IMG/VR virus record: IMGVR_UViG_3300048771_000189
Coordinates: 1-23,125 of that record
Source: a virus
Length of the DNA: 23,125 nucleotides
Reading direction: 5' to 3' (one strand)
A program made the translations under genes and the position numbers. Of this stretch, positions 532 to 23,125 are shown piece after piece; position 1 is the first letter of the stretch; each line of letters opens with the position of its first letter. A model generated the notes under the pieces. That model did not search any database. It was not told the DNA's origin and saw only the letters and a list, made by a program, of their open reading frames with translations.

Positions 532-2844
532 CTAGTTGATGCTCACGTCTTCGGGACGCGCTACGCAGTAACAGTTCGGGTGCAAAGGCGGCGTGCCAAC
601 GTCGCCGTAGCTTGCGGTCATTGTTGCATCGTCCGCTGTGAGCGTCGCGCCGCTGTCGAGGAAGTTGCTGTCGATGGAAATGACCGTGCCGTCGAGCGCC
701 TTACAGAATGGGCATGGTTCGCCGGATGCCGTGTACCATTTGATTGTCTTTACGACGCCTGACTGTTTCCACGTCTCCTTGAGCGATGCGTTCGTTGTCC
801 GGAACGCCTCGGTCTTCGCGATGCGCTCGGCCCCGTAGTCGTCCGCCGCGCCGTACACTTCGCCTACCGCGCTCGTGATGTCGGCAAGGCTATCGCCTTT
901 CGAAAGGCCCTCGTTGATCGCCTTCTCAAGCTGCGACAGCACCGTGTTCTGGTAGCTGTCGGACATCTTGGCGATGGACTCGTGCAATGCCTTCGCCGCA
1001 TTCTCGTCCGAGATCGGATTGAGGTCGGTAATGCCAAGCTCTGACGCCGCTGCTTTGCCCTCCGACTCGTAGAGCGATTCCATGATCGGTGTCATGGCGT
1101 CTACCGTGATGCCGATCCATTTCTCAATATCAAAAAGCTTCGTGGGGTCTATGGCCTTCTCGATGACGGATGGGAGTTTGTCGGTCACTTCCTTGTACTG
1201 CTCGGCGTTGATGCGGCGGATCGATTCTGCGATCTCGCGTTCGGCTTCGGTCGTGCGCTCCGTCGCCGCCTTCCATGCAACCTCGTCCTGGGCCTTTGTG
1301 GAGAACTTCTTGGTCGGGTGGTCGAGTGCATCCTTGACGGCTTTTGCGACTTTCTCGGCGAGATCTTCGGACATCTTCGTCCGAATCTTTGCGCGCTTCT
1401 GAAGCTTTGTCCGAGCGGGCCGGAACGCTACACGCTGGCCGTTGGCCGCCTTCTGGATGCGCTGCAATGACTTCCCGCTGCGGTTTGCCTCCGGGGTAAC
1501 GTCGCCGTCGCCCGTTGGCTCCCCCGTCGGCTCCATAGCGGTCGGGTGCATGAGCTGATCTCCGCCGTCCACCGGACCTAAGCCCATGAACTCATCGCGG
1601 GCCTCGTTTATCGTGAGCACCGGCTGACTGCCGACGGATGCCTGCATCTCGGTCGTCCTGGCGGCGCGGTCTTCCGGTACTGGGTCGATGAATGTGATGT
1701 ATAGGTCGTCACCATAACGCGGGACAAGCTTCTCGTTCAAGAAGCTGCAAATAAGGATCATGCGCGGCTTGATGACGCGCTTTGAGAACACGTAGTCTGC
1801 CGTCTCGGCGGTCGCGCGGTTCGTGTCTGACTCCGCCGTGCCAAGGATCGTCTTGCTGACGCCGAACATGGCAAGGATGCGGTCGCGGGAATCGAGCGAG
1901 AGGTTGCGGAAGTCCATGTCCTTCGGGTTCGAACCGATGCCCGTCCACTTCACGCCCTTTGGGAGGACCAAGATGCTGTTCATGTTGTCCACGCCGACGT
2001 GCGTAGACTCGAAGCCGATCTTCAGAGAATCAACCTGCGTCTCGGATACGAACTCGGTCTCAAGCACTCCCGCCGGTCGTGCGCCGTTCTGGAAGAATTT
2101 GCGGTTGAACTCCTGGGCATAGTTGTCGTTGTCGATGTAGTCCGCTGCGGCCTGTACGACTCCGAGGCCGGTGAACGGGTCTGACGGGTCGGGCAAACGG
2201 AAGTGGAGTATTTGATAGGGTTCGAACTTGATGGTTTTCGTCTCAAGCTTCAGCTCGTAGCCTTTGACCTGGAACGGGAAGGATGACGTGTCGATGACCG
2301 TCTTCATGAGCGACGGGTCGAGCGGATAGATCGCGGTCGGCTCGTCGAGCTCGTTCTTCACGCCGTCGAGATACCAATAGGCATTGCCCGTGAGGTCGAG
2401 ATGCGCAGAGAGCATGTACTTCAGTTCCGGGCCGGTCATGTCCGGGTTTACGCCGTCCAAAAGATTGAGCAGGTCGTGGTCGGTCTGTTCCTCGTCGTTC
2501 TTGCCATCAACCTTGAAGAGACGCCAGTCGATGTTCATGATGTCGCGGGCGATCGCGTTCACGGATGCGTATACAAAGCCCCGGTTGTTTGCCATCGCCT
2601 TGCCGGCATCGATGCCGCTCGAACTGCCCGGACGATTGATCGCCATCGGGTTCGAGTCGCTGCCGAACTCGCCGAACTTCCCGCCAACGGCTTTGCGGAT
2701 GCCGTAGATGTCGAACGTGATGTTCTGACCCTGCGAGTAGAGCTCGGGGTCGATACGGGAGATGAGCTTGCGAAGCTGACGCGCGGGCCAGCTCGGTTTA
2801 TTTTTGGCAGTGAGGGAGGTTGGGATAAAGCGGTTTTGAGGCAT
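532..2844 (-). CDS. Portal protein fused to Mu gpF-like head morphogenesis domain
   Basis: This 770-aa protein has two parts. Residues about 80-430 look like an HK97/SPP1-type portal protein, the dodecameric ring at the packaging vertex: NNRGFVYASVNAIARDI, HFRLPDP, a FGVSKTILG segment and an ETADYVFSKR helix near 347-356. Residues about 540-762 resemble the Mu gpF/SPP1 gp7 minor head protein, ending in the family's cysteine-rich signature: GEPCPFCKALDGT (708-720) and PPLHPNCYC (752-760). A Pro/Gly/Asp-rich linker lies near 435-455, followed by a basic, helical segment. Portal-MuF fusions are known in other phages. No Shine-Dalgarno sequence precedes the ATG, and the stop of the upstream gene is 4 bases away, so translation may be coupled. 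The link to packaging is supported by the terminase genes upstream. Confidence 0.93.
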   Translation of the reverse strand: MPQNRFIPTSLTAKNKPSWPARQLRKLISRIDPELYSQGQNITFDIYGIRKAVGGKFGEFGSDSNPMAINRPGSSSGIDAGKAMANNRGFVYASVNAIARDIMNIDWRLFKVDGKNDEEQTDHDLLNLLDGVNPDMTGPELKYMLSAHLDLTGNAYWYLDGVKNELDEPTAIYPLDPSLMKTVIDTSSFPFQVKGYELKLETKTIKFEPYQILHFRLPDPSDPFTGLGVVQAAADYIDNDNYAQEFNRKFFQNGARPAGVLETEFVSETQVDSLKIGFESTHVGVDNMNSILVLPKGVKWTGIGSNPKDMDFRNLSLDSRDRILAMFGVSKTILGTAESDTNRATAETADYVFSKRVIKPRMILICSFLNEKLVPRYGDDLYITFIDPVPEDRAARTTEMQASVGSQPVLTINEARDEFMGLGPVDGGDQLMHPTAMEPTGEPTGDGDVTPEANRSGKSLQRIQKAANGQRVAFRPARTKLQKRAKIRTKMSEDLAEKVAKAVKDALDHPTKKFSTKAQDEVAWKAATERTTEAEREIAESIRRINAEQYKEVTDKLPSVIEKAIDPTKLFDIEKWIGITVDAMTPIMESLYESEGKAAASELGITDLNPISDENAAKALHESIAKMSDSYQNTVLSQLEKAINEGLSKGDSLADITSAVGEVYGAADDYGAERIAKTEAFRTTNASLKETWKQSGVVKTIKWYTASGEPCPFCKALDGTVISIDSNFLDSGATLTADDATMTASYGDVGTPPLHPNCYCVARPEDVSIN

Positions 2845-4353: not shown

Positions 4354-5796
4354 CTACATCTCGATCCAGTGGATCTTCGGCAGTTCGAGGCCCTGGTTCG
4401 CAAGCCCCTGTAGCAGGTATACGAGCGCGTCGTTCAAGTCGTCGTGCGACTCCACCCCAAGGTTGAATATCTGGCCTAGCAGCTCCTCGCATCCGCTGCG
4501 GGGGAAGAGCACCGTGCCGTTCTTGATGTACGGCGCGACAACCTGCAACCGAGCCCGCTTGTCGCCCTGCGGCTTCATCGGCACGACGGGGATCATCATG
4601 CGCTCCATCTCCTGGATGGCCGCCTTCTGATACGCCACGTCCTCCACGAAAAAGATATTTGCGCCCTTGAGCTCGCCCGGAATGCTCCTCACTTTTTGCA
4701 GGAAGTTGTGGAACGTAACGTGTTCGTTGTAGGGGTTCTGGTTGATATAGATCTTTGGTGAACCGTCCACGTAGTAGACCTCGCCGCTCGCAATGGCCGT
4801 GAAGTCGGCATTCTCCTTCTGTGAAATGGCAAGGTCGATGCCGTGGCCTTTGATCGCCGCGAGCTGGCCCGTCGGCTTCTCATCGTAGTAGTGGATGTCC
4901 TCCGGCGTGATGATCTGGTCTTCTTCGGGGACGATCTTCAAAAGCATCTCGCGCTGCCATGGGATCGCACCCATGTCGCGTTCCCGGTCCTTGAGCGATT
5001 GTGCGGTGGGATACATCGCGGGCCATGTACATACGCCCTTGTCCGTGATGAGCGGAAATTCAAGGCATTTGAAGCCGGTTCCTGGCGCCTTTAGGCGAGA
5101 CAGTAACGCGTCCATATGCAGCAAATTGCCGATGACTACGAGCTTTCCCTTGCGGGCGTCGAGTCCAGGCATGACCTCCGAATGCAGCCAACGGTCGGTC
5201 TTATCGCGGTTCTCTTTCGTGCGCACCCATTCGCCGTCCTCGGGGTCGTCTACGACCACAAGCTTCGGTCTGTGCTGGAGATGGCGGAGTCCGCGCACCT
5301 TCTGGCCGCGTGATCGCGCAAGGATGCGGACGCCGTTCGAGAGCACGATGTTCTGCTTCTGCCATTCCTCGCCTTCACCTTTGAGCGCAAAGTCCTCGAT
5401 CACCTTCCCGGTGATCTCGCCGTAGTCCTGCTTGATGAGGCTGTTCGTCTCAAGCTCATGCTTGATGGCGGATATGTTGAGCGTTGCCTGGCGGGAAGAA
5501 TCGGCGATGAGGATGATAAACGGGTATTTGTCGGGATATTCGAGTGCAGCCCACAAGGGAAGGGCCAAGCTTCCGAACGTGCTCTTACCCGATCCGCGAA
5601 AGCCGATGATGAGCAGGCGGCGGAGTTCTTCAGTCTCTAGCGCGCGGATAAGTTCCGGATGGAATGCGGCGGGAGGATCGGTGAAATAGCCGGTGAGGTA
5701 TACCAGCGAAAAACCGAGCAGGTGTTGCCTGGTCGTCTTACGAGCTTCGAACGTGTCGAAGGGGTCAAGCTGCTGGAGCGTCTTGGTGCTGGACAT
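4354..5796 (-). CDS. terL: Terminase large subunit
   Basis: This 480-aa protein is the ATP-driven packaging motor and genome-cutting nuclease. The ATPase half shows Walker A GFRGSGKS (65-72), Walker B PKLVVVDDPED (177-187) and a coupling-type motif VIGNLLH (221-227). The nuclease half shows the three expected acidic clusters of the RNase H-like fold: GIDLAIS with D321, FFVED with D386, and HDDLNDA with D453/D456. Length is normal for the family. The ATG overlaps the end of the small-terminase gene by 32 bases, and GGAGG lies immediately before it, so translation is probably coupled. It acts at the portal during head filling. Confidence in the family is high. Confidence 0.96.
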   Translation of the reverse strand: MSSTKTLQQLDPFDTFEARKTTRQHLLGFSLVYLTGYFTDPPAAFHPELIRALETEELRRLLIIGFRGSGKSTFGSLALPLWAALEYPDKYPFIILIADSSRQATLNISAIKHELETNSLIKQDYGEITGKVIEDFALKGEGEEWQKQNIVLSNGVRILARSRGQKVRGLRHLQHRPKLVVVDDPEDGEWVRTKENRDKTDRWLHSEVMPGLDARKGKLVVIGNLLHMDALLSRLKAPGTGFKCLEFPLITDKGVCTWPAMYPTAQSLKDRERDMGAIPWQREMLLKIVPEEDQIITPEDIHYYDEKPTGQLAAIKGHGIDLAISQKENADFTAIASGEVYYVDGSPKIYINQNPYNEHVTFHNFLQKVRSIPGELKGANIFFVEDVAYQKAAIQEMERMMIPVVPMKPQGDKRARLQVVAPYIKNGTVLFPRSGCEELLGQIFNLGVESHDDLNDALVYLLQGLANQGLELPKIHWIEM

Positions 5797-12310: not shown

Positions 12311-14074
12311 TCATGGGAATAGTATTGACCGTGCTTTCACCTCTCCAGCTTCATATTCAATCAGTCCAAAGGATTTCAGACGACCGCGCGGATTTGTATA
12401 ACCAGTGCTGCGCTCGTGCATATAACCAGCAATGGAACACAAGTCGTTATTTGAGATACCATCAGGATATTTCTCAAGCAACGGTTTGAGTAATTTCTTT
12501 TCAGGACCGTCAAGCTTTGCCAAAACAGCCTCATGCAATGCTTCCGTTGTGAGAGGTGCCGAAGGAGTTTGTGCGAGTCCACGGCCGGCTTCGGTAAGCT
12601 GAACCGCACCATTGGAATAATCCAAAAGCCCTTTGGCCTTCAGATAGCCGCGGGGATTCGTGTACCCTGTGGATCGGAAGTGGCTGTAGCCAGACAGGAA
12701 TGCCACCAGCTCGTTCGGTGGGTTCGTCTGTCCGATGGATTCGCACCAAGCCAATGCATTCAAAACGCGCTGTTCGGGCCCGGAGAGATCATCTGAAGGA
12801 TGGAACTCGGTGACTGCTGGTCTGGGTGCCATCACGGGCTTTTGCGATCTAACGACCGGAGCGTTTATCGAAAGCCTCTGCTTCGCAGGGAGTTCTACAG
12901 CCATTGATTCTGGAGAGCTTATCCCTCCCACCTTGGCGATCAAGGGTCCGAGAGCCGTAATAACCTTTTTGAGATCCTCGGCGTATTTGATCCATGCATT
13001 CAGGAGGACTTGCCATTCTCTATTTGTCTTTGTTTGTTCGTCTCGCTCCCTCTGTATCTCCTGATTAGCGTTCCGCTCGATCTCTTTCCGAAGGGTCTCA
13101 ACCTGCTTAGAAACCGCTGCTTCTATGGCAACAGGATTAGCTCCCGGCGCTTTTTCCAAAATGTTCTTCTCGCGCTGAAGAGCCACGACTCGCAGACGTA
13201 GTTCGTCTACCGTCCTTGCTTCTTCCTCCGCCTCCTGGGGGAGGTCTGCAAGTTTGCCAAGTATCTTCTTTATCCCGTCTGTGGGAGGCACAACTTTCGT
13301 GAGTGATCGTGAACCAGCCTTGGGGTGGGTAGTATGAACGTCTCCAACGGTAACCTTCTGGACTTCATCCGATATGGCTGGGCCGAACGCATAAAACTCT
13401 CCTGGCTTCAATGCTCGTAATGACAGCATCTGCTCGCGGGAAGTGAACCCGAGCTCGTCCGCCGCACGCTTCATATCGATGTCTTGCGAGGCTCGACCGA
13501 TGAGCTTGTTGTTGCACTCTGCCGCTGCATCTTTGCTCAATTTAGAGATGCGCTGGGTGGCAAGAATAGCCGAAAAGCCGCGCTTGCGACCGAGAGCACA
13601 GAGACCTATCACCGCATCCATCGCTTCGCTCTGTCCTTTCTCGGGGGCGTAGGTATGGGCCTCATCGATGACCACAATGCAGTCGTGCCAGAGATCCTTC
13701 GGTGCGTTGATAAGCGATTCGAGAAACAGTCGTACGAAACGCTTCCGTTCCTGCGGATGAAGCTCATAGAGATCGATGATCGCGGAAACCTTAAGTTCCA
13801 AAAGTTTGCGGGCGAGTAGCGCTGCTGAACGGGGTTCGGCAGGTGTATCTCCTCCTTTGCCGGCGAGAACATAATCGTATTTCTCCCGGAGCGTAGCGAA
13901 CTCACCCTCCGAATCGAGAATGATGTGTTGGACCTTACCGTGCGACTGTTCGAGAATGCGACGGAGAGCCCAAGACTTTCCGCCCCCCGAATTTGCTTGA
14001 ACAAGAAGCTTGCTCTCGATCAATTTCGGGAGGTCTATTTCTGTTTGGTTGTTGAGTTTTATAAATTGATTCAC
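12311..14074 (-). CDS. HerA/FtsK-like ATPase with duplicated C-terminal domain
   Basis: This 587-aa protein starts at a GTG (14074) whose first bases overlap the upstream TGA. Residues 1-260 form a HerA/FtsK-superfamily motor: Walker A NSGGGKS (28-34), Walker B CIVVIDEAH (132-140) and a sensor glutamine in ILATQR (170-175). A Glu/Lys/Arg-rich coiled coil spans about 278-375. Two winged-helix-like repeats follow, with near-identical cores: GYSHFRSTGYTNPRGYLKAK (462-481) and GYMHERSTGYTNPRGRLKSF (550-569). HerA-like ATPases translocate or process DNA ends as hexamers, usually with a nuclease partner (NurA), which is not seen here. The winged helices probably bind DNA. The wHTH and zinc-knuckle genes upstream are likely co-expressed. 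Confidence 0.88.
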   Translation of the reverse strand: MNQFIKLNNQTEIDLPKLIESKLLVQANSGGGKSWALRRILEQSHGKVQHIILDSEGEFATLREKYDYVLAGKGGDTPAEPRSAALLARKLLELKVSAIIDLYELHPQERKRFVRLFLESLINAPKDLWHDCIVVIDEAHTYAPEKGQSEAMDAVIGLCALGRKRGFSAILATQRISKLSKDAAAECNNKLIGRASQDIDMKRAADELGFTSREQMLSLRALKPGEFYAFGPAISDEVQKVTVGDVHTTHPKAGSRSLTKVVPPTDGIKKILGKLADLPQEAEEEARTVDELRLRVVALQREKNILEKAPGANPVAIEAAVSKQVETLRKEIERNANQEIQRERDEQTKTNREWQVLLNAWIKYAEDLKKVITALGPLIAKVGGISSPESMAVELPAKQRLSINAPVVRSQKPVMAPRPAVTEFHPSDDLSGPEQRVLNALAWCESIGQTNPPNELVAFLSGYSHFRSTGYTNPRGYLKAKGLLDYSNGAVQLTEAGRGLAQTPSAPLTTEALHEAVLAKLDGPEKKLLKPLLEKYPDGISNNDLCSIAGYMHERSTGYTNPRGRLKSFGLIEYEAGEVKARSILFP

Positions 14075-17935: not shown

Positions 17936-17967
17936 ACGCCCTGGCCATGTGCCGGGGCGTTTTCTTT
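17936..17967 (+). terminator. Intrinsic terminator or attenuator
   Basis: ACGCCCTGGC and GCCGGGGCGT form a GC-rich stem around CATGT, followed at once by TTTTCTTTT. It lies only a few bases before the GGAGGGG ribosome site of the CHC2 gene, so it could attenuate that gene or end most transcripts of the 53-aa gene. Confidence 0.75.
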
Positions 17968-17978
17968 TGGAGGGGACC

Positions 17979-18557
17979 ATGAGTCTCGATTTCAAAGTGA
18001 TAAAGGAAATACGAATGGTGGACGTGTGCGGACGGTACAAGATCGCACTGAAGTTCAGGGGCGACTATGCGAACGCTCCATGTCCGCTCCCGACCCATAA
18101 GGACGGGGATAAGGCCAAGAGCTTCTCGATCAACCTGGCCGGCAATTACTGGCGATGTTTCTCTGATTCCTGTAATGCGAAGAACGACGGCAAACGCGGC
18201 GGGGATGTCATCAACTTCGTCGCACTGATGGAAAACTGCCGGGAGAAAGAGGCCGCTCAAAAGCTGGCCGACTGGTACGGGGTAGGCAAAGAAAAAGCCG
18301 CGCCTCGCATGGAGACACGGCCACAGATAATAAAACCAAACATGCAAAAGGCTATTAGTCAGCCTAGCGCACTGAGCGGTAGCGTCAAGCCCTCGGGGGA
18401 TGCTCCGGTGAATTACATGGCATTGATCGACAAGTGGCTGGAGGAAGTATTCGAGCCCCGTGGGGACGAGACGGAGGAAGAATACTGGCTGAGACTGAAG
18501 AAGCAGTTCAAGTCAAAGCTGGTGGAGAGCTATCGGGCCGGCCAGAATCTGAAATAG
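17979..18557 (+). CDS. CHC2-type primase zinc-finger protein
   Basis: The gene encodes 192 aa from an ATG at 17979, chosen because GGAGGGG lies five bases upstream. Residues 35-100 match the DnaG-type CHC2 finger: CPLPTHKDGDKAKSFSIN, then NYWRCFSDSC, GGDVINFVALMENC and AAQKLADWYG. The two Cys/His pairs and GGDVI-F are the family's core. The usual TOPRIM catalytic domain is absent; instead there is a linker and a helical end (KQFKSKLVESYRAGQNLK). It may recognise template DNA for replication or a partner primase, but is probably not a full primase. It overlaps the end of the AT-hook gene tail to tail by 50 bases. Confidence 0.85.
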   Translation: MSLDFKVIKEIRMVDVCGRYKIALKFRGDYANAPCPLPTHKDGDKAKSFSINLAGNYWRCFSDSCNAKNDGKRGGDVINFVALMENCREKEAAQKLADWYGVGKEKAAPRMETRPQIIKPNMQKAISQPSALSGSVKPSGDAPVNYMALIDKWLEEVFEPRGDETEEEYWLRLKKQFKSKLVESYRAGQNLK

Positions 18558-18750: not shown

Positions 18751-19203
18751 CTAAATCGACGATACAGACTTCAATAGTTTGTCCGCGTCCTCAAGTGATG
18801 CAACGGTCATCATAGCGACTTGAACGCTATCGAAACGGGCTTCAAGATCATCGAGAGTGCCGACTTCCTTATCAACCTGCTCATCAATGAGCTTGCGGAG
18901 AATGCGGCCTGCATCCCCATTGGCTATGCGCACATCTTCATCATCGTCGTCATACAAAACAAACCCAAGTTTAGCGAGGTCTTTCTCCTGCTCCTTGAGT
19001 TTCTCTTTGGCGGCGGTGATGAGTGCGAGAGCCTTGAATGCGCCTTTCTTCTCGGCGTACTGCTTGATGAGAGATTCTTTAAGTGTGTCGCGCTTCTCGG
19101 TGAGTGTTCTTTTCACCCGTGATCGAAGGCCGTTGTAATCGCCATTTCCTACCACGTCGGCAAGCTGTTTCCTATTCGCCAACGAAAATTGATTAGTGTT
19201 CAT
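18751..19203 (-). CDS. Hypothetical helical protein
   Basis: The gene encodes 150 aa beginning MNTNQFSLANRKQLADVVGN. The middle is a Lys/Glu-rich helix (LKESLIKQYAEKKGAFKALA and further), then an Asp-rich loop, LYDDDDEDVRIAN, and a helical end. The leader contains ACAAATAACAAAAC before the ATG; a longer in-frame start at 19296 has no support. No family is recognised. It lies downstream of the ATPase operon after a 136-base gap and may share its transcript. Confidence 0.7.
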   Translation of the reverse strand: MNTNQFSLANRKQLADVVGNGDYNGLRSRVKRTLTEKRDTLKESLIKQYAEKKGAFKALALITAAKEKLKEQEKDLAKLGFVLYDDDDEDVRIANGDAGRILRKLIDEQVDKEVGTLDDLEARFDSVQVAMMTVASLEDADKLLKSVSSI

Positions 19204-19339
19204 GAGTTTTGTTATTTGTTTTGGTCTTCCCCCTGCTTCCGCAATAATGATGCTTCGAATGTCCGTCCGCACGCGGTGGCTTATCGTGAGCATCATGGAA
19301 CGATTATTCGGGAGAGACGCCTGGGGGTACAGCCGCTAG

Positions 19340-20665
19340 TTACGCAGAGCTGGAAAGGAAGCGATTTATCTCCGTCATCGTTTGCTCTTTCGGGGTGGCC
19401 CAGCGCATGAGGGATTGCTTGATGATCCGGGTCGCGTCCTCCCGCTTTGGCTTCAGGGGCTTGGGGGCCAGTACCTTCCGGACGATGGGCTGGTTATTCT
19501 CAAACGTCCGTGCGTAGAACTCGTACCGGGAGAGATCGGTTATGTGCGATGGCAAGACCTCGGGGACTCGCCAATTGTCGGCGAGCATCTGGGCGTCGTC
19601 GCCGGAAACGTTGAATGAGATCTGGGTTGCGGCATTGGTCAAAATGTCGCGCATGATAGGCATTTGATAGCTGCCCTGGAAGGCGGTAACGAGGGAGATG
19701 CCGTATTTCCTCGCCTCGGCCAAAAGTGTTCCGAACTTCCCGCCGTCGGTCCCGTTCTGTGCCTCGTCGGCAACGATAATAAAGTCGGGACGCTCCGTTT
19801 GCTTCTCGCGCTTCAGCGCGGCGATGGCGAACATCGAGATGATGAGGGAGTAGAGAACGCGGGCAGTCTCCTCTCCTAGCCTTCCCTTTGAGATCCTGCA
19901 TATCAGGATCTTTCGTTCGTTCATAATTTGCAGCGGATCGATCGAATCATAGTGCCCGATGATGGGAAGGATGTTCGGGCGCATCAGCTTTGAAAGCTTG
20001 TTTATCCCTGGTGCCAACTTCGCCGTCTGGTCGGTGTGCCGGAGTTTATCGAAGGCTCTCTTGAAGAGTGCGAGGAAAGGATTGCTCGAAGCCCCGAGAA
20101 GACGCTCCCGGTATTCATCGTCGATCAGGAACCGGTAGACATGGATGAGGGTGGGGTGCGGGACGTTCTCACACACCGCGTCGATGTCGGCGCGAATGTT
20201 GTGGGGAGTCTCGTTACCCCATGCGCTATCGCTTCCGGCCATGGCCTTTAGAAGGGAGACGCAGGTTTCTTTGGCCTGTTCGAGCGCTGCCGGATCGGTG
20301 AAGAATAGGGGGTTGAAGGTCGGGACGGAATCGAGATCTGGGTCGAAAAAGATGAAGTCTCGTTTGCGGGAGGACGGAAGGATGAGGCTCAAGCGGTCGT
20401 ATACGTCGCCGTGAACGTCCATAAAAAGGCCACCGTGCCCCTGCTTCACGAACTCCGTGAACAGATTCTCTAAGAGGGCTGACTTTCCCATGCCGGTAGC
20501 GCCGATGATGTTTACATGGCGGGTGGGGTCTATTTGGAATGGAGCGCGTGTGAGCGCGTCTCGGCCGATGGTTATGTTCATTATCACGGTGTCCCCGTCC
20601 CCATCTACTGACGGCTTTCGCGCATCCGAGGGGACGAGGAGGAGGTGAGTGCGCCGGAGCGCCAC
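19340..20665 (-). CDS. TraD/HerA-like DNA-translocating ATPase 2
   Basis: This 441-aa protein has Walker A GATGMGKS (55-62), a MDVHGDVYD segment (82-90), FFDPDLDSVPTFNPL (106-120) typical of TraD/TraG coupling-like ATPases, Walker B FIIVADEAQN (295-304) and a sensor AFQ (328-330). Such ATPases pump DNA and couple it to relaxases or replication machinery. No N-terminal membrane helices are seen, unlike classical coupling proteins, so it probably acts in the cytoplasm. The start is a GTG at 20665; an ATG at residue 29 is an alternative. It is the last of three closely packed genes with the relaxation-like protein and a second ATPase. Confidence 0.88.
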   Translation of the reverse strand: MALRRTHLLLVPSDARKPSVDGDGDTVIMNITIGRDALTRAPFQIDPTRHVNIIGATGMGKSALLENLFTEFVKQGHGGLFMDVHGDVYDRLSLILPSSRKRDFIFFDPDLDSVPTFNPLFFTDPAALEQAKETCVSLLKAMAGSDSAWGNETPHNIRADIDAVCENVPHPTLIHVYRFLIDDEYRERLLGASSNPFLALFKRAFDKLRHTDQTAKLAPGINKLSKLMRPNILPIIGHYDSIDPLQIMNERKILICRISKGRLGEETARVLYSLIISMFAIAALKREKQTERPDFIIVADEAQNGTDGGKFGTLLAEARKYGISLVTAFQGSYQMPIMRDILTNAATQISFNVSGDDAQMLADNWRVPEVLPSHITDLSRYEFYARTFENNQPIVRKVLAPKPLKPKREDATRIIKQSLMRWATPKEQTMTEINRFLSSSA

Positions 20666-20697
20666 CGCCCGTAGGCGATTATCTAAAGTATGTCGCT

Positions 20698-21531
20698 TTA
20701 TTTGACGATGTCCATGAGCGAAAGTGTCTTGCCGCTCGAAGTGTGGAGCACCGGGGCGGCGGGCGTCTCGATCATGTCGCGGTGGGTCGTAAAAGCGAGG
20801 ATGTCGGAGGTCAGCCTGAAAGGCGCTCCTGCGTGTTTCCGTTTGAGATATACGTCAACACAATTGCACGATCCCTTTAGATGGACGAGGAGATTGTTCA
20901 TCGCTTCGGCGTCGCGCATGGGAATGATGACGGTGTAATACCGAAATCCCCACACTTCCTTCATCTTCCCGCTGCCATGAGAATCGACATACGGCTTCAG
21001 CTTTTCGTAGAGGGCGTCAAAGTCCTTTTTCTTGTATTCCTCTTCAAGGAAGAAATGCGAGGTCTTGGTCTTGGTAAGTTCAAAGGTGTCGTCGGGCTTT
21101 ACGATATGAGTGCCGCCCTTTTTCCAGCCGATCTCCCACTTTTCCTTCCGGGCGAGCGCATCGATCGTGATGTGCGTCCGTGCCCGGCGAAGGTCGTGCT
21201 CAATCGTGTGCGGGGAATGCGTGAGCGGGAACTCTTTGGGGTAGGTCTGGGGCCAGCGTTCCTGAGCGAGCGCGACGCCCTTTTCGGACAGTCCAGATGC
21301 GCTGGGGAGAGTCCCTTTGCCAAGATACGTTTCAGGCCGGAAGAATATCTGATTAACGAAGCCGGAACTGTTGAGTTTTGAGATGGTCCGGTTGATCGTC
21401 CGCGTCGCGTCTTGTTCTTCATTGCCATAAATAATCCAAGCCAGGTCGCGTGTGGTAAGAACCTCGTAGCGGGCGAGGTTTTCAAGTATCTTGAGCTTTA
21501 GTTCTGTCGGGTAGAATAGTTCGTCCTTCAT
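20698..21531 (-). CDS. Replication-relaxation-like winged-helix protein
   Basis: The gene encodes 277 aa. Residues 8-60 form a winged helix (LTTRDLAWIIYG, then ATRTINRTISKLNSSGFVNQ). Downstream are H108-x2-EHDL (108-114), VKPDDTFEL (144-152) and FFLEEEYKKK (160-169). This order, wHTH, then HxxxND-like, PD and E-rich segments, fits the replication-relaxation family (Replic_Relax) of mobilisable plasmids and mobile elements. PDD...FFLEEE also has the look of a PD-(D/E)XK active site, but that is inference. The gene overlaps the ATPase upstream by 50 bases, so it is translated in the same unit. I consider it an accessory DNA-binding and possibly nicking factor for the two ATPases. Confidence 0.8.
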   Translation of the reverse strand: MKDELFYPTELKLKILENLARYEVLTTRDLAWIIYGNEEQDATRTINRTISKLNSSGFVNQIFFRPETYLGKGTLPSASGLSEKGVALAQERWPQTYPKEFPLTHSPHTIEHDLRRARTHITIDALARKEKWEIGWKKGGTHIVKPDDTFELTKTKTSHFFLEEEYKKKDFDALYEKLKPYVDSHGSGKMKEVWGFRYYTVIIPMRDAEAMNNLLVHLKGSCNCVDVYLKRKHAGAPFRLTSDILAFTTHRDMIETPAAPVLHTSSGKTLSLMDIVK

Positions 21532-22609
21532 CCTCCTCTAACTCAACCATTTCAGGGAGAGGTTGTGAAGCGTACTTGTCCACAGTGCGGCTCTTTATGA
21601 CTTTGGCGTAACTGGCGGGACTCGGGCCGAGGAAGGTAGGAGTCTTGATAGTGGTGACGCGGTCTTCAGTAGTGCGTTCGGCGCGGAACGGCGACGTGAA
21701 CTGTATCCTCGTAGCGATCGTTGGGAGTTTGGCCTGGATCTCCTTCGGAAGATCTGAGGCAAGTTGATTGGCGAGGATGAGGCAGAGCTTGTACTTCCTC
21801 GCGCGCGTGAGGATGGCCTCGAACTCGGGCGCACAGAACCGCATGATCGTGTGGCACTCATCGATGTAGAGGTAGTATGGCGTCCGCTGGTCTTCGGGGA
21901 TATAGCGGCGTCCGAATGTTGCCTGCTGGACTTTCGCCACAATGAGCGAGCCGATGAACAGGTCGGTGGGAGTGTCTTTGAGATTTACCAGTAGGATTTG
22001 CTTGTCCTGCATCACGTCCCAGATATTCAGCTTCGGCTTCGCGGCCCCGAACATCGTGCGGAGGGTTGGCGATTCGGTGAACGGTGTCATTCGCTCAACG
22101 ATAGAGACGGTTTCCGAGGGTTTTGGAAACGGCGTCCATTGCTCTCTGCGGTGCGGGGCGCGTTTGAGAATCTGCTCACGGCGCTTCTCTGATTCGAGAA
22201 AATGCTGGATGTCGAGAAACGTGCAGTCGCCGCCGTTATCGTTGGCGTCGAATAATGTGCCGATGACTCTTTGCAGTCTGGGGCGCGCGACCGGCGCGCC
22301 TTCAAGGTCGAATAGATTGAGTAATTGGTCAGCGAGTACCGTCCGCTCGGGCTCGTTGCGGTAGGAAAAGAAATCAATCGGGACAGGATTATCGGTATCG
22401 AAGAATATCGTGTCCCTCACCCGATACTTGGGAATCCAATGCACCAGGCGGTTCACGAGATCGCCGGTGGGATCTATGACGCACACCCCGTGGCCGTTCT
22501 CGATGTCCTGGAGCGCCATGCTTTGAATGAGGGAACTTTTGCCGGTGCCGGGGTTACCCGCGATGTAGGTGGACTTTGGCCGGAGGTCCCCTTTGAGCGT
22601 GGACTTCAT
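21482..22609 (-). CDS. TraD/HerA-like DNA-translocating ATPase 1
   Basis: This 375-aa protein has Walker A GNPGTGKS (18-25), VCVIDPTGDLVNR (42-54), a TraD-like FFDTDNPVPIDFFSY (69-83), Walker B YYLYIDECH (245-253) and a sensor ILANQLASDL (278-287). It lacks membrane helices and an all-alpha domain, so it is shorter than typical VirD4/TraD proteins. It shares architecture but little direct identity with the ATPase at 19340. The start overlaps the upstream stop by 4 bases (ATGA). The C-terminal 30 residues are acidic. It may work as a hexameric DNA pump with the protein at 20698. Confidence 0.88.
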   Translation of the reverse strand: MKSTLKGDLRPKSTYIAGNPGTGKSSLIQSMALQDIENGHGVCVIDPTGDLVNRLVHWIPKYRVRDTIFFDTDNPVPIDFFSYRNEPERTVLADQLLNLFDLEGAPVARPRLQRVIGTLFDANDNGGDCTFLDIQHFLESEKRREQILKRAPHRREQWTPFPKPSETVSIVERMTPFTESPTLRTMFGAAKPKLNIWDVMQDKQILLVNLKDTPTDLFIGSLIVAKVQQATFGRRYIPEDQRTPYYLYIDECHTIMRFCAPEFEAILTRARKYKLCLILANQLASDLPKEIQAKLPTIATRIQFTSPFRAERTTEDRVTTIKTPTFLGPSPASYAKVIKSRTVDKYASQPLPEMVELEEDEGRTILPDRTKAQDT

Positions 22610-23073
22610 TCAATGTCGCTCAGCTCTACGTCGTGGGTGGGGCGTTTCTTCTCCGGGAACTTCACGCCGGTTTTCTTCTCGATGAGTTGTTTCACTATCG
22701 GCCCTAAAAACCCACCGACGGCACGGCCTACATCCGCAAGCTGTTGTTCTTCAGCCGGGGTGAGATTGTCTGTTGCCGTGAGCAGGTCTTTGGTGGCTTC
22801 TCCTACGGAGTCGTTGGGCTTGCGGGGCTTTGATTCGCGCATAGCCTGAGTGAAGGCTTTGAGGAGGGGTATGGGCTTTTCATCTTCATCCTCCGCAGTG
22901 CTTCTCGTATTAGGGAAGAGCACGTCGCCCAGGGTGGTGTATTGCTTACCATCCGTAGATCCTCCAGTCCTTCGCTCGCGTTTCTCCCATTCTTCTTCGG
23001 TCGGGAAAGGCGGTAGCCCTTTCTTCTTACGGTCGATCGCTTCAGCGAAAGTAATCTCTCTTTTACCAGCCAT
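22606..23073 (-). CDS. Hypothetical protein at head of ATPase operon
   Basis: The gene encodes 155 aa with GGAGGACCT just before the ATG. It is charged and largely disordered: MAGKREITFAEAIDRKKKGL, an acidic patch (AEDEDEKP) near residue 63, then a helix with GRAVGGFLGPIVKQLIEK (115-132). It may be an adaptor for the downstream ATPase; the 4-base overlap supports coupled translation. No family is recognised. Confidence 0.75.
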   Translation of the reverse strand: MAGKREITFAEAIDRKKKGLPPFPTEEEWEKRERRTGGSTDGKQYTTLGDVLFPNTRSTAEDEDEKPIPLLKAFTQAMRESKPRKPNDSVGEATKDLLTATDNLTPAEEQQLADVGRAVGGFLGPIVKQLIEKKTGVKFPEKKRPTHDVELSDIE

Positions 23074-23125
23074 AGGTCCTCCAGTCGCCGCACCGTCCTA
23101 GCCGATAGGCGTACCCGATAGGGCG

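Follow-up and report, generated by a model that had tools for sequence, protein, structure and literature searches.

A recurrent coupling-protein/MOBC-like gene module with a candidate transfer origin in integrating tailed phages of Acidobacteriota

Introduction

The window analyzed in this study is the entire IMG/VR record IMGVR_UViG_3300048771_000189 (23,125 bases), itself a fragment of a phage genome, and this paper describes an operon of four minus-strand genes at its end (positions 19340-23073), together with the structured element that precedes it. The operon encodes a small soluble protein, a VirD4/TraD-like ATPase (B), a winged-helix protein with a predicted nuclease domain, and a second ATPase (A). 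It can be read as a mobilization module of the MobB-MobC kind, in which a coupling protein and a MOBC-like protein, acting on a candidate origin of transfer (oriT), make use of the type IV secretion system (T4SS) of a helper; the probability of this reading is estimated at roughly 0.45. The ordered trio of ATPase B, winged helix and ATPase A recurs in a group of integrating tailed phages, where it is accompanied by membrane protein genes and by a cis element of conserved pairing. The features of the module in the window are as follows.

23082-23125, minus strand: 3' part of the conserved structured element, candidate oriT or leader, ending with the record
22606-23073, minus strand: soluble protein of 155 amino acids, first operon gene in the window, its open reading frame (ORF) overlapping that of ATPase B by 4 bases
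21482-22609, minus strand: ATPase B, VirD4/TraD-like motor (TrwB_AAD_bind, SXT_TraD and phrog_5156 matches)
20698-21531, minus strand: winged helix with PD-(D/E)XK-like nuclease domain, Replic_Relax/MOBC-like relaxase candidate (phrog_9381 match, invariant residues, hhalign, AlphaFold2)
19340-20665, minus strand: ATPase A, second VirD4/HerA-like motor and paralogue of B (profile matches, paralogy by hidden Markov models (HMMs))

An initial annotation, made from the sequence of the window, had described four tightly packed genes with overlaps of 4 and 50 bases. The ORF check returned all four at these coordinates, with the 155-amino-acid gene and ATPase B sharing positions 22606-22609 and ATPase B and the winged-helix gene sharing positions 21482-21531. 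The label "adaptor-like", given at that stage to the 155-amino-acid protein, is without support, as searches for family matches and for membrane helices found neither in this protein.

Recurrence of the module in related phages

Relatives of the window were obtained via a scan with the terminase large subunit (TerL), which yielded 42 loci in viral contigs, and via an ATPase A alignment scan, which turned up additional contigs; viral contigs scanned with ATPase A or B as single proteins gave no matches. ATPase A relatives with 33-59% identity are encoded in 7 of the 42 TerL-related contigs, and all seven have the order ATPase B, winged helix, ATPase A. With HMMs built from the first eight loci, the full ordered trio was detected in 16 loci, i.e., the window and 15 others. 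The neighboring primase-like gene is present in 14 TerL-related contigs; the trio was found in each of the seven that extend more than 3 kb beyond the primase, and the other seven end within approximately 1.5 kb of it. An interpretation of the module as accessory (7 of 14 long contigs) was dropped, because contigs lacking the trio stop within 1.5 kb of the primase or never reach it. Within the reach of these contigs, the phage group carries the module without exception.

These observations bear out the earlier claim that a TraD-like/Replic_Relax-like gene set resides in a tailed phage, including its repeated co-occurrence with terminase genes in other genomes. Chance and misassembly, the latter having been named beforehand as a possible refutation, are excluded because the gene order recurs in 15 other loci. 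Ratios of nonsynonymous to synonymous substitution rates (dN/dS) were 0.03-0.10 for ATPase A and 0.08-0.26 for the winged-helix gene, which indicates purifying selection on both.

Looser relatives of the module were also encountered. TerL relatives with 33-56% identity occur in metagenome-assembled genomes (MAGs) of Patescibacteria (L094-L103), in which long ATPase genes that match the profile of ATPase A are present as well. A two-gene version is found in Microcystis phage Mwe-JY31 (22 kb; L006 8646-11422), where the gene of a coupling-type ATPase precedes that of a protein matching Replic_Relax marginally; both are annotated as hypothetical. Finally, in an Agrobacterium plasmid (L009 7512-10059) an ATPase gene and a replication-relaxation gene overlap by 14 bases near a phage-type integrase on the same strand, constituting another integrase-linked module.

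The winged-helix protein as a relaxase candidate

The winged-helix protein matched phrog_9381, "replication initiation by nicking" (5.6e-7), and the residues H112, P146, D147, E163 and K177, forming an H...PD...E...K set, are invariant in 16 of 16 copies. The whole-protein AlphaFold2 model, with a predicted local distance difference test (pLDDT) score of 79.7, contains a winged helix, of which residues 3-97 gave MarR-type fold matches, followed by a helix-strand-strand-strand-helix-strand core. The C-terminal domain was modeled separately (pLDDT 84.8) because VIA-align on the whole protein listed winged-helix domains only. Fold searches with this domain in Foldseek and VIA-align returned mainly PD-(D/E)XK enzymes, including BsaWI, PaqCI, the nickase Nt.BspD6I, Can2, FokI and EcoT38I, with Z scores of about 6-7 each. 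The predicted model thereby combines the winged helix and the PD-(D/E)XK core that define MOBC/Replic_Relax proteins, at a Z score of only about 7. MOBC relaxases have been placed in the PD-(D/E)XK group, and the MOBC protein TraX has an N-terminal winged helix-turn-helix (PMC12857230).

The profile of the winged-helix family aligned with plasmid MobC in hhalign (96.2%, E 2.6e-9, 181 columns), as compared to 0.1% for an unrelated control; the reference record of CloDF13 lacks an intact MobC ORF, and the proteins of a related plasmid were used instead. The spacing of the H, W, PD and E residues is alike in plasmid MobC proteins. Moreover, PF13814 (Replic_Relax), which represents the MobC relaxase class in CONJscan (PMC5357655), exceeded its threshold in seven related contigs from the trio group. 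The initial call of a replication-relaxation protein was therefore upheld by the phrog_9381 match and by the relatives, and not by the Pfam model for the window copy itself. Matches to TAL effectors in the PDB sequence search were rejected as repeat artefacts. Taken from sequence and predicted structure, the middle protein of the trio is a candidate MOBC-like relaxase.

The two ATPases and their membrane partners

The TraD/HerA-like assignment of both ATPases agrees with their profile matches, which were TrwB_AAD_bind (1.7e-8), DUF87 (1e-6) and phrog_5156 (1e-34) for ATPase A, and TrwB_AAD_bind (8e-6) and phrog_5156 (2.5e-33) for ATPase B. Walker A and B motifs are conserved in both, both have the RecA-like domain of coupling proteins, and HMM comparison identified them as paralogues. 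The ATPase B family aligned over 308 columns with MobB, the coupling protein of the plasmid (hhalign 93.7%), whereas the alignment of ATPase A with MobB spanned 69 columns only; in the plasmids, the coupling-protein gene directly precedes mobC. The start of ATPase A is probably the ATG near 20581 and not the GTG at 20665, because its homologues start there in the alignment, and the gene would therefore lie about 116 bases from the winged-helix gene.

The absence of membrane helices from the window ATPases had been taken to suggest that they may be cytoplasmic pumps. The observation holds and the deduction is not supported, since most relatives encode a small membrane protein directly upstream of ATPase B, and in one prophage (L070) membrane helices are fused to ATPase B itself. 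The window record ends where the membrane gene of the relatives lies. In CloDF13, the membrane domain of MobB is essential for mobilization (PMC7431656).

The window also encodes, at 12311-14074 (minus strand), a third P-loop ATPase, of HerA/Zot type, which the initial annotation does not mention; it matched DUF87 (4e-8), Zot (1e-5), phrog_2666 (1e-19) and several PADLOC HerA models, and it was not seen in the mapped relatives.

A structured element at the start of the operon

DNA comparison of the relatives revealed a strongly conserved block of approximately 175 bp just before the first operon gene, which the initial annotation had not noticed. Positions 23082-23125, the final 44 bases of the window, are 97.7% identical to the element of a prophage in an Acidobacterium contig (L137), at an identity of only 52% between the ATPase A proteins of the two phages. 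This part, of which the 5' end is cut off by the end of the record, scored 33.8 bits (E 1.9e-6) with covariance model R1 and holds two CTAYCG repeats.

Alignment of seven full copies gave a fold with an outer 13-bp stem around an inner hairpin of 16-18 bp, and a short third hairpin. Among its 35 pairs, 13 are doubly changed, a covariation reached by none of 500 shuffles, and pairing is retained in 95.1% of the cells, versus 32-51% when the partner was slid. According to the covariance model, 13 loci in addition to the window carry the element where the operon begins; six of these lie beyond the seven full copies, some of them with stems that differ considerably in sequence. When the alignment is widened, compensation extends to 25 of 35 pairs, although 2 of its 14 rows repeat elements that are already included, read from the reverse strand. 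There are hardly any G-U pairs, and the varying pairs are almost all Watson-Crick. On the operon strand, the elements contain 21.6 CTAYCG motifs per kb, versus about 0.55 per kb for the DNA around them; the opposite strand has one copy. Rfam contains no match to the element, and neither the window nor L137 gave oriT-like iterons with tandem and direct repeat finders. A pattern match in the 175-kb contig L175 was discarded as chance, as the covariance model misses the element there and the ATPase is missing.

The MOBC relaxase TraX binds five direct repeats in its oriT (PMC12857230). The strict Watson-Crick symmetry and the one-strand direct repeats of the phage element would fit a DNA site for a MOBC-like protein, making it a candidate oriT. 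Between the winged-helix gene and ATPase A, a further block without a clear gene (L137 2494-2637; up to 92% identical over 91 bases to L156) may represent either a small RNA or a second cis-acting site.

Host and lifestyle

TerL relatives with 78-84% identity are located in MAGs of Acidobacteria. The L137 prophage (52 kb) is inserted in a tRNA-Met gene of Acidobacterium sp. palsa_291 (PKVY01000081.1, 232 kb) and is bounded by att repeats, which are two 23-bp copies of the 3' end of this gene, at 116013 and 168104, with host genes past both. The integrase is encoded at one end of this prophage and the module at the opposite end, and the two would adjoin in the excised form. An integrase of this family, a tyrosine integrase, is present in 15 of the 42 TerL-related contigs. 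The suggestion of a phage-plasmid is thus not supported by the relatives; as far as tested, the group consists of integrating temperate phages of Acidobacteriota from soil and not of plasmid prophages. VirB4 (PF03135), a mating-pair gene of the kind expected in a self-transmissible conjugative element, is absent from nine phage records, which are fragments, and present once in the single host genome examined (Acidobacterium). In the G027 prophage (L070 10480-14710) a second, broken integrase-like frame lies beyond the intact integrase, before host genes such as that for phosphoglycerate mutase.

Neighboring and structural genes

Outside the operon, the following genes of the window were assigned.

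18751-19296, minus strand: protein of 181 amino acids, next gene downstream of ATPase A, kept in part of the relatives
17949-18557, plus strand: CHC2 zinc-finger primase-like protein, conserved neighbor of the module (Zn_ribbon_DnaG 3e-9), probably starting at 17982
4354-5796, minus strand: TerL (phrog_38 1.3e-70; 42 related loci in viral contigs)
532-2844, minus strand: portal protein with Mu F-like head domain (phrog_2662 1.8e-115, Phage_portal 2.5e-62)

The portal and TerL matches confirm that the element carries phage structural and packaging genes, as had been proposed. The 181-amino-acid protein has 60% identity to its counterpart in prophage L137, 36% in G039 and 24% in G027. TerL ORFs of 806 (G043:C67:147567-149987) and 824 amino acids (G027:C1:16398-18872) instead of 480 suggest that some members of the group carry an insertion or an intein-like element. 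The portal is a single ORF of 1129 amino acids in one relative (G027:C1:10550-13939) and two ORFs in another (G011:C1:17875-20224).

Discussion

If the operon is a mobilization module, the prophage would first excise, after which the winged-helix/nuclease protein would bind and nick the structured, repeat-bearing element as oriT. ATPase B, held at the membrane by the neighboring or fused membrane protein, would then move the DNA strand, together with its cytoplasmic paralogue A, to a type IV secretion channel that the host or another element provides. As a result, the phage would spread by conjugative mobilization besides virions. The earlier idea of a mobilizable phage gains weight from the conserved cis element, from the nuclease residues that never vary and from the profile match with MobC, whereas its plasmid state is not supported. 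The broader proposition, that integrating tailed phages of Acidobacteriota routinely carry a working mobilization system and have two routes between cells, virions and helper-driven conjugation, is advanced tentatively and at less than even odds.

Several observations weigh against mobilization. The Z scores of the nuclease fold are only about 7, a range also seen for models without clear relatives, and the nuclease domain alone aligned weakly with MobC (hhalign, 20%). The window protein misses PF13814, and neither it nor four relatives matched NF041423, the NCBIfam model of the CloDF13-type MobC subfamily, for which plasmid MobC scores 246.7. There are two ATPases rather than one, without membrane helices in those of the window, and VirB4 is absent from nine phage records, which are fragments, so that any transfer would depend on a helper. 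The element has no known nic site and might instead be a leader RNA. Finally, similar ATPase/Replic_Relax pairs of Bacillus phages were interpreted by the authors who described them as plasmid maintenance functions (PMC9703825).

The main rival explanation is that the module serves replication or segregation of phage DNA within one cell, with the nuclease nicking the element as an origin and membrane-tethered motors moving or partitioning the copies. This would suit the "replication initiation by nicking" label of phrog_9381, the primase-like gene as a constant neighbor, and the presence of the module in all contigs that extend into the region, which would be anticipated for a core function; moreover, Bacillus phages with T4SS-like/Replic_Relax genes also have ParM-like genes (PMC9703825, PMC10454425). 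However, the module lies at the prophage end, where it would come to adjoin the integrase after excision, and the closest characterized pair is MobB-MobC. Membrane-anchored VirD4-like motors are not known to be parts of phage replisomes, and a role in replication or segregation is considered less likely than mobilization. The position at the prophage end would also suit defense or superinfection exclusion, in which HerA-type ATPases drive a PD-(D/E)XK nuclease on incoming DNA, and PADLOC indeed gave mad8 matches (1e-15) and weak HerA matches for the ATPases, with HerA complexes among the PDB profile matches of ATPase A. This explanation is improbable, as PADLOC detected no other MADS gene and no defense partner among the remaining module proteins, the best Pfam and NCBIfam matches are of the TrwB/TraD/CedD kind, the trio is constant and not swapped among relatives, and a large conserved cis element is unexpected in such systems.

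Independently of the roles of the proteins, the upstream element might be a structured leader RNA controlling operon expression. About 5-15 bases separate its end from the first start codon, its stability as RNA is very high (z -4.65), and nearly all of its repeats are on the coding strand. The mostly Watson-Crick varying pairs with very few G-U states, which are unusual in RNA helices, the lack of an Rfam match, and direct repeats resembling the MOBC binding-site type make a leader less likely than not. A degenerate, non-functional remnant of plasmid conjugation, to which the failure to find VirB4 in the phage records might point, is largely refuted by the low dN/dS of both genes; the intact Walker motifs and nuclease residues across loci and the compensated element likewise leave it with hardly any likelihood.

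It is customary to regard phages and conjugative elements as separate classes. If integrating tailed phages constantly carry a coupling-protein/relaxase module along with a conserved candidate oriT, dual transfer would become directly testable. If true, such transfer would bear on gene movement in Acidobacteriota, where genetics is poor. The cis element would be an addition outside all Rfam families, and should the module serve replication instead, it would represent an unusual membrane-linked phage replication machine.

Comparison with known systems

The literature searched, with most subscription journals lying outside it, contains no report of this phage group. Coupling-protein/MOBC modules are already known from plasmids and from integrative and mobilizable elements (IMEs), and a T4SS-like/Replic_Relax pair is known from Bacillus Tyroviruses (PMC9703825). 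In the MOBC plasmid CloDF13 the coupling-protein gene mobB is likewise followed directly by the gene of a winged-helix/PD-(D/E)XK relaxase, and both proteins are similar to those of the phages by profile. In contrast to CloDF13, the phage module resides in an integrating tailed phage, is followed by a second ATPase, has a membrane anchor that is encoded separately or fused in a variable manner, is preceded by a structured element, and misses the NCBIfam MobC subfamily model. Streptococcal IMEs of class 8 combine VirD4, Rel_PF13814/MobC and an integrase close together in an integrating element, but are mobilizable elements with serine integrases and not phages with terminase and portal (PMC5357655). 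Tyrovirus gp17-gp18 place a type IV secretion-like protein beside a replication-relaxation protein in a tailed phage; in the accessible text, however, a single such secretion-like protein is named, ParM-like plasmid genes are present, and neither a cis element nor a nuclease motif is described (PMC9703825). TraX of pAD1 shares the winged helix and a restriction-endonuclease-like catalytic domain, and binds direct repeats in oriT, but is the experimentally demonstrated relaxase of a conjugative plasmid, compared here by description and not by sequence (PMC12857230). Compared to these systems, the two-motor arrangement with a detachable membrane anchor, constant in an integrating phage group of Acidobacteriota, is new, as are the conserved active site and the structured element.

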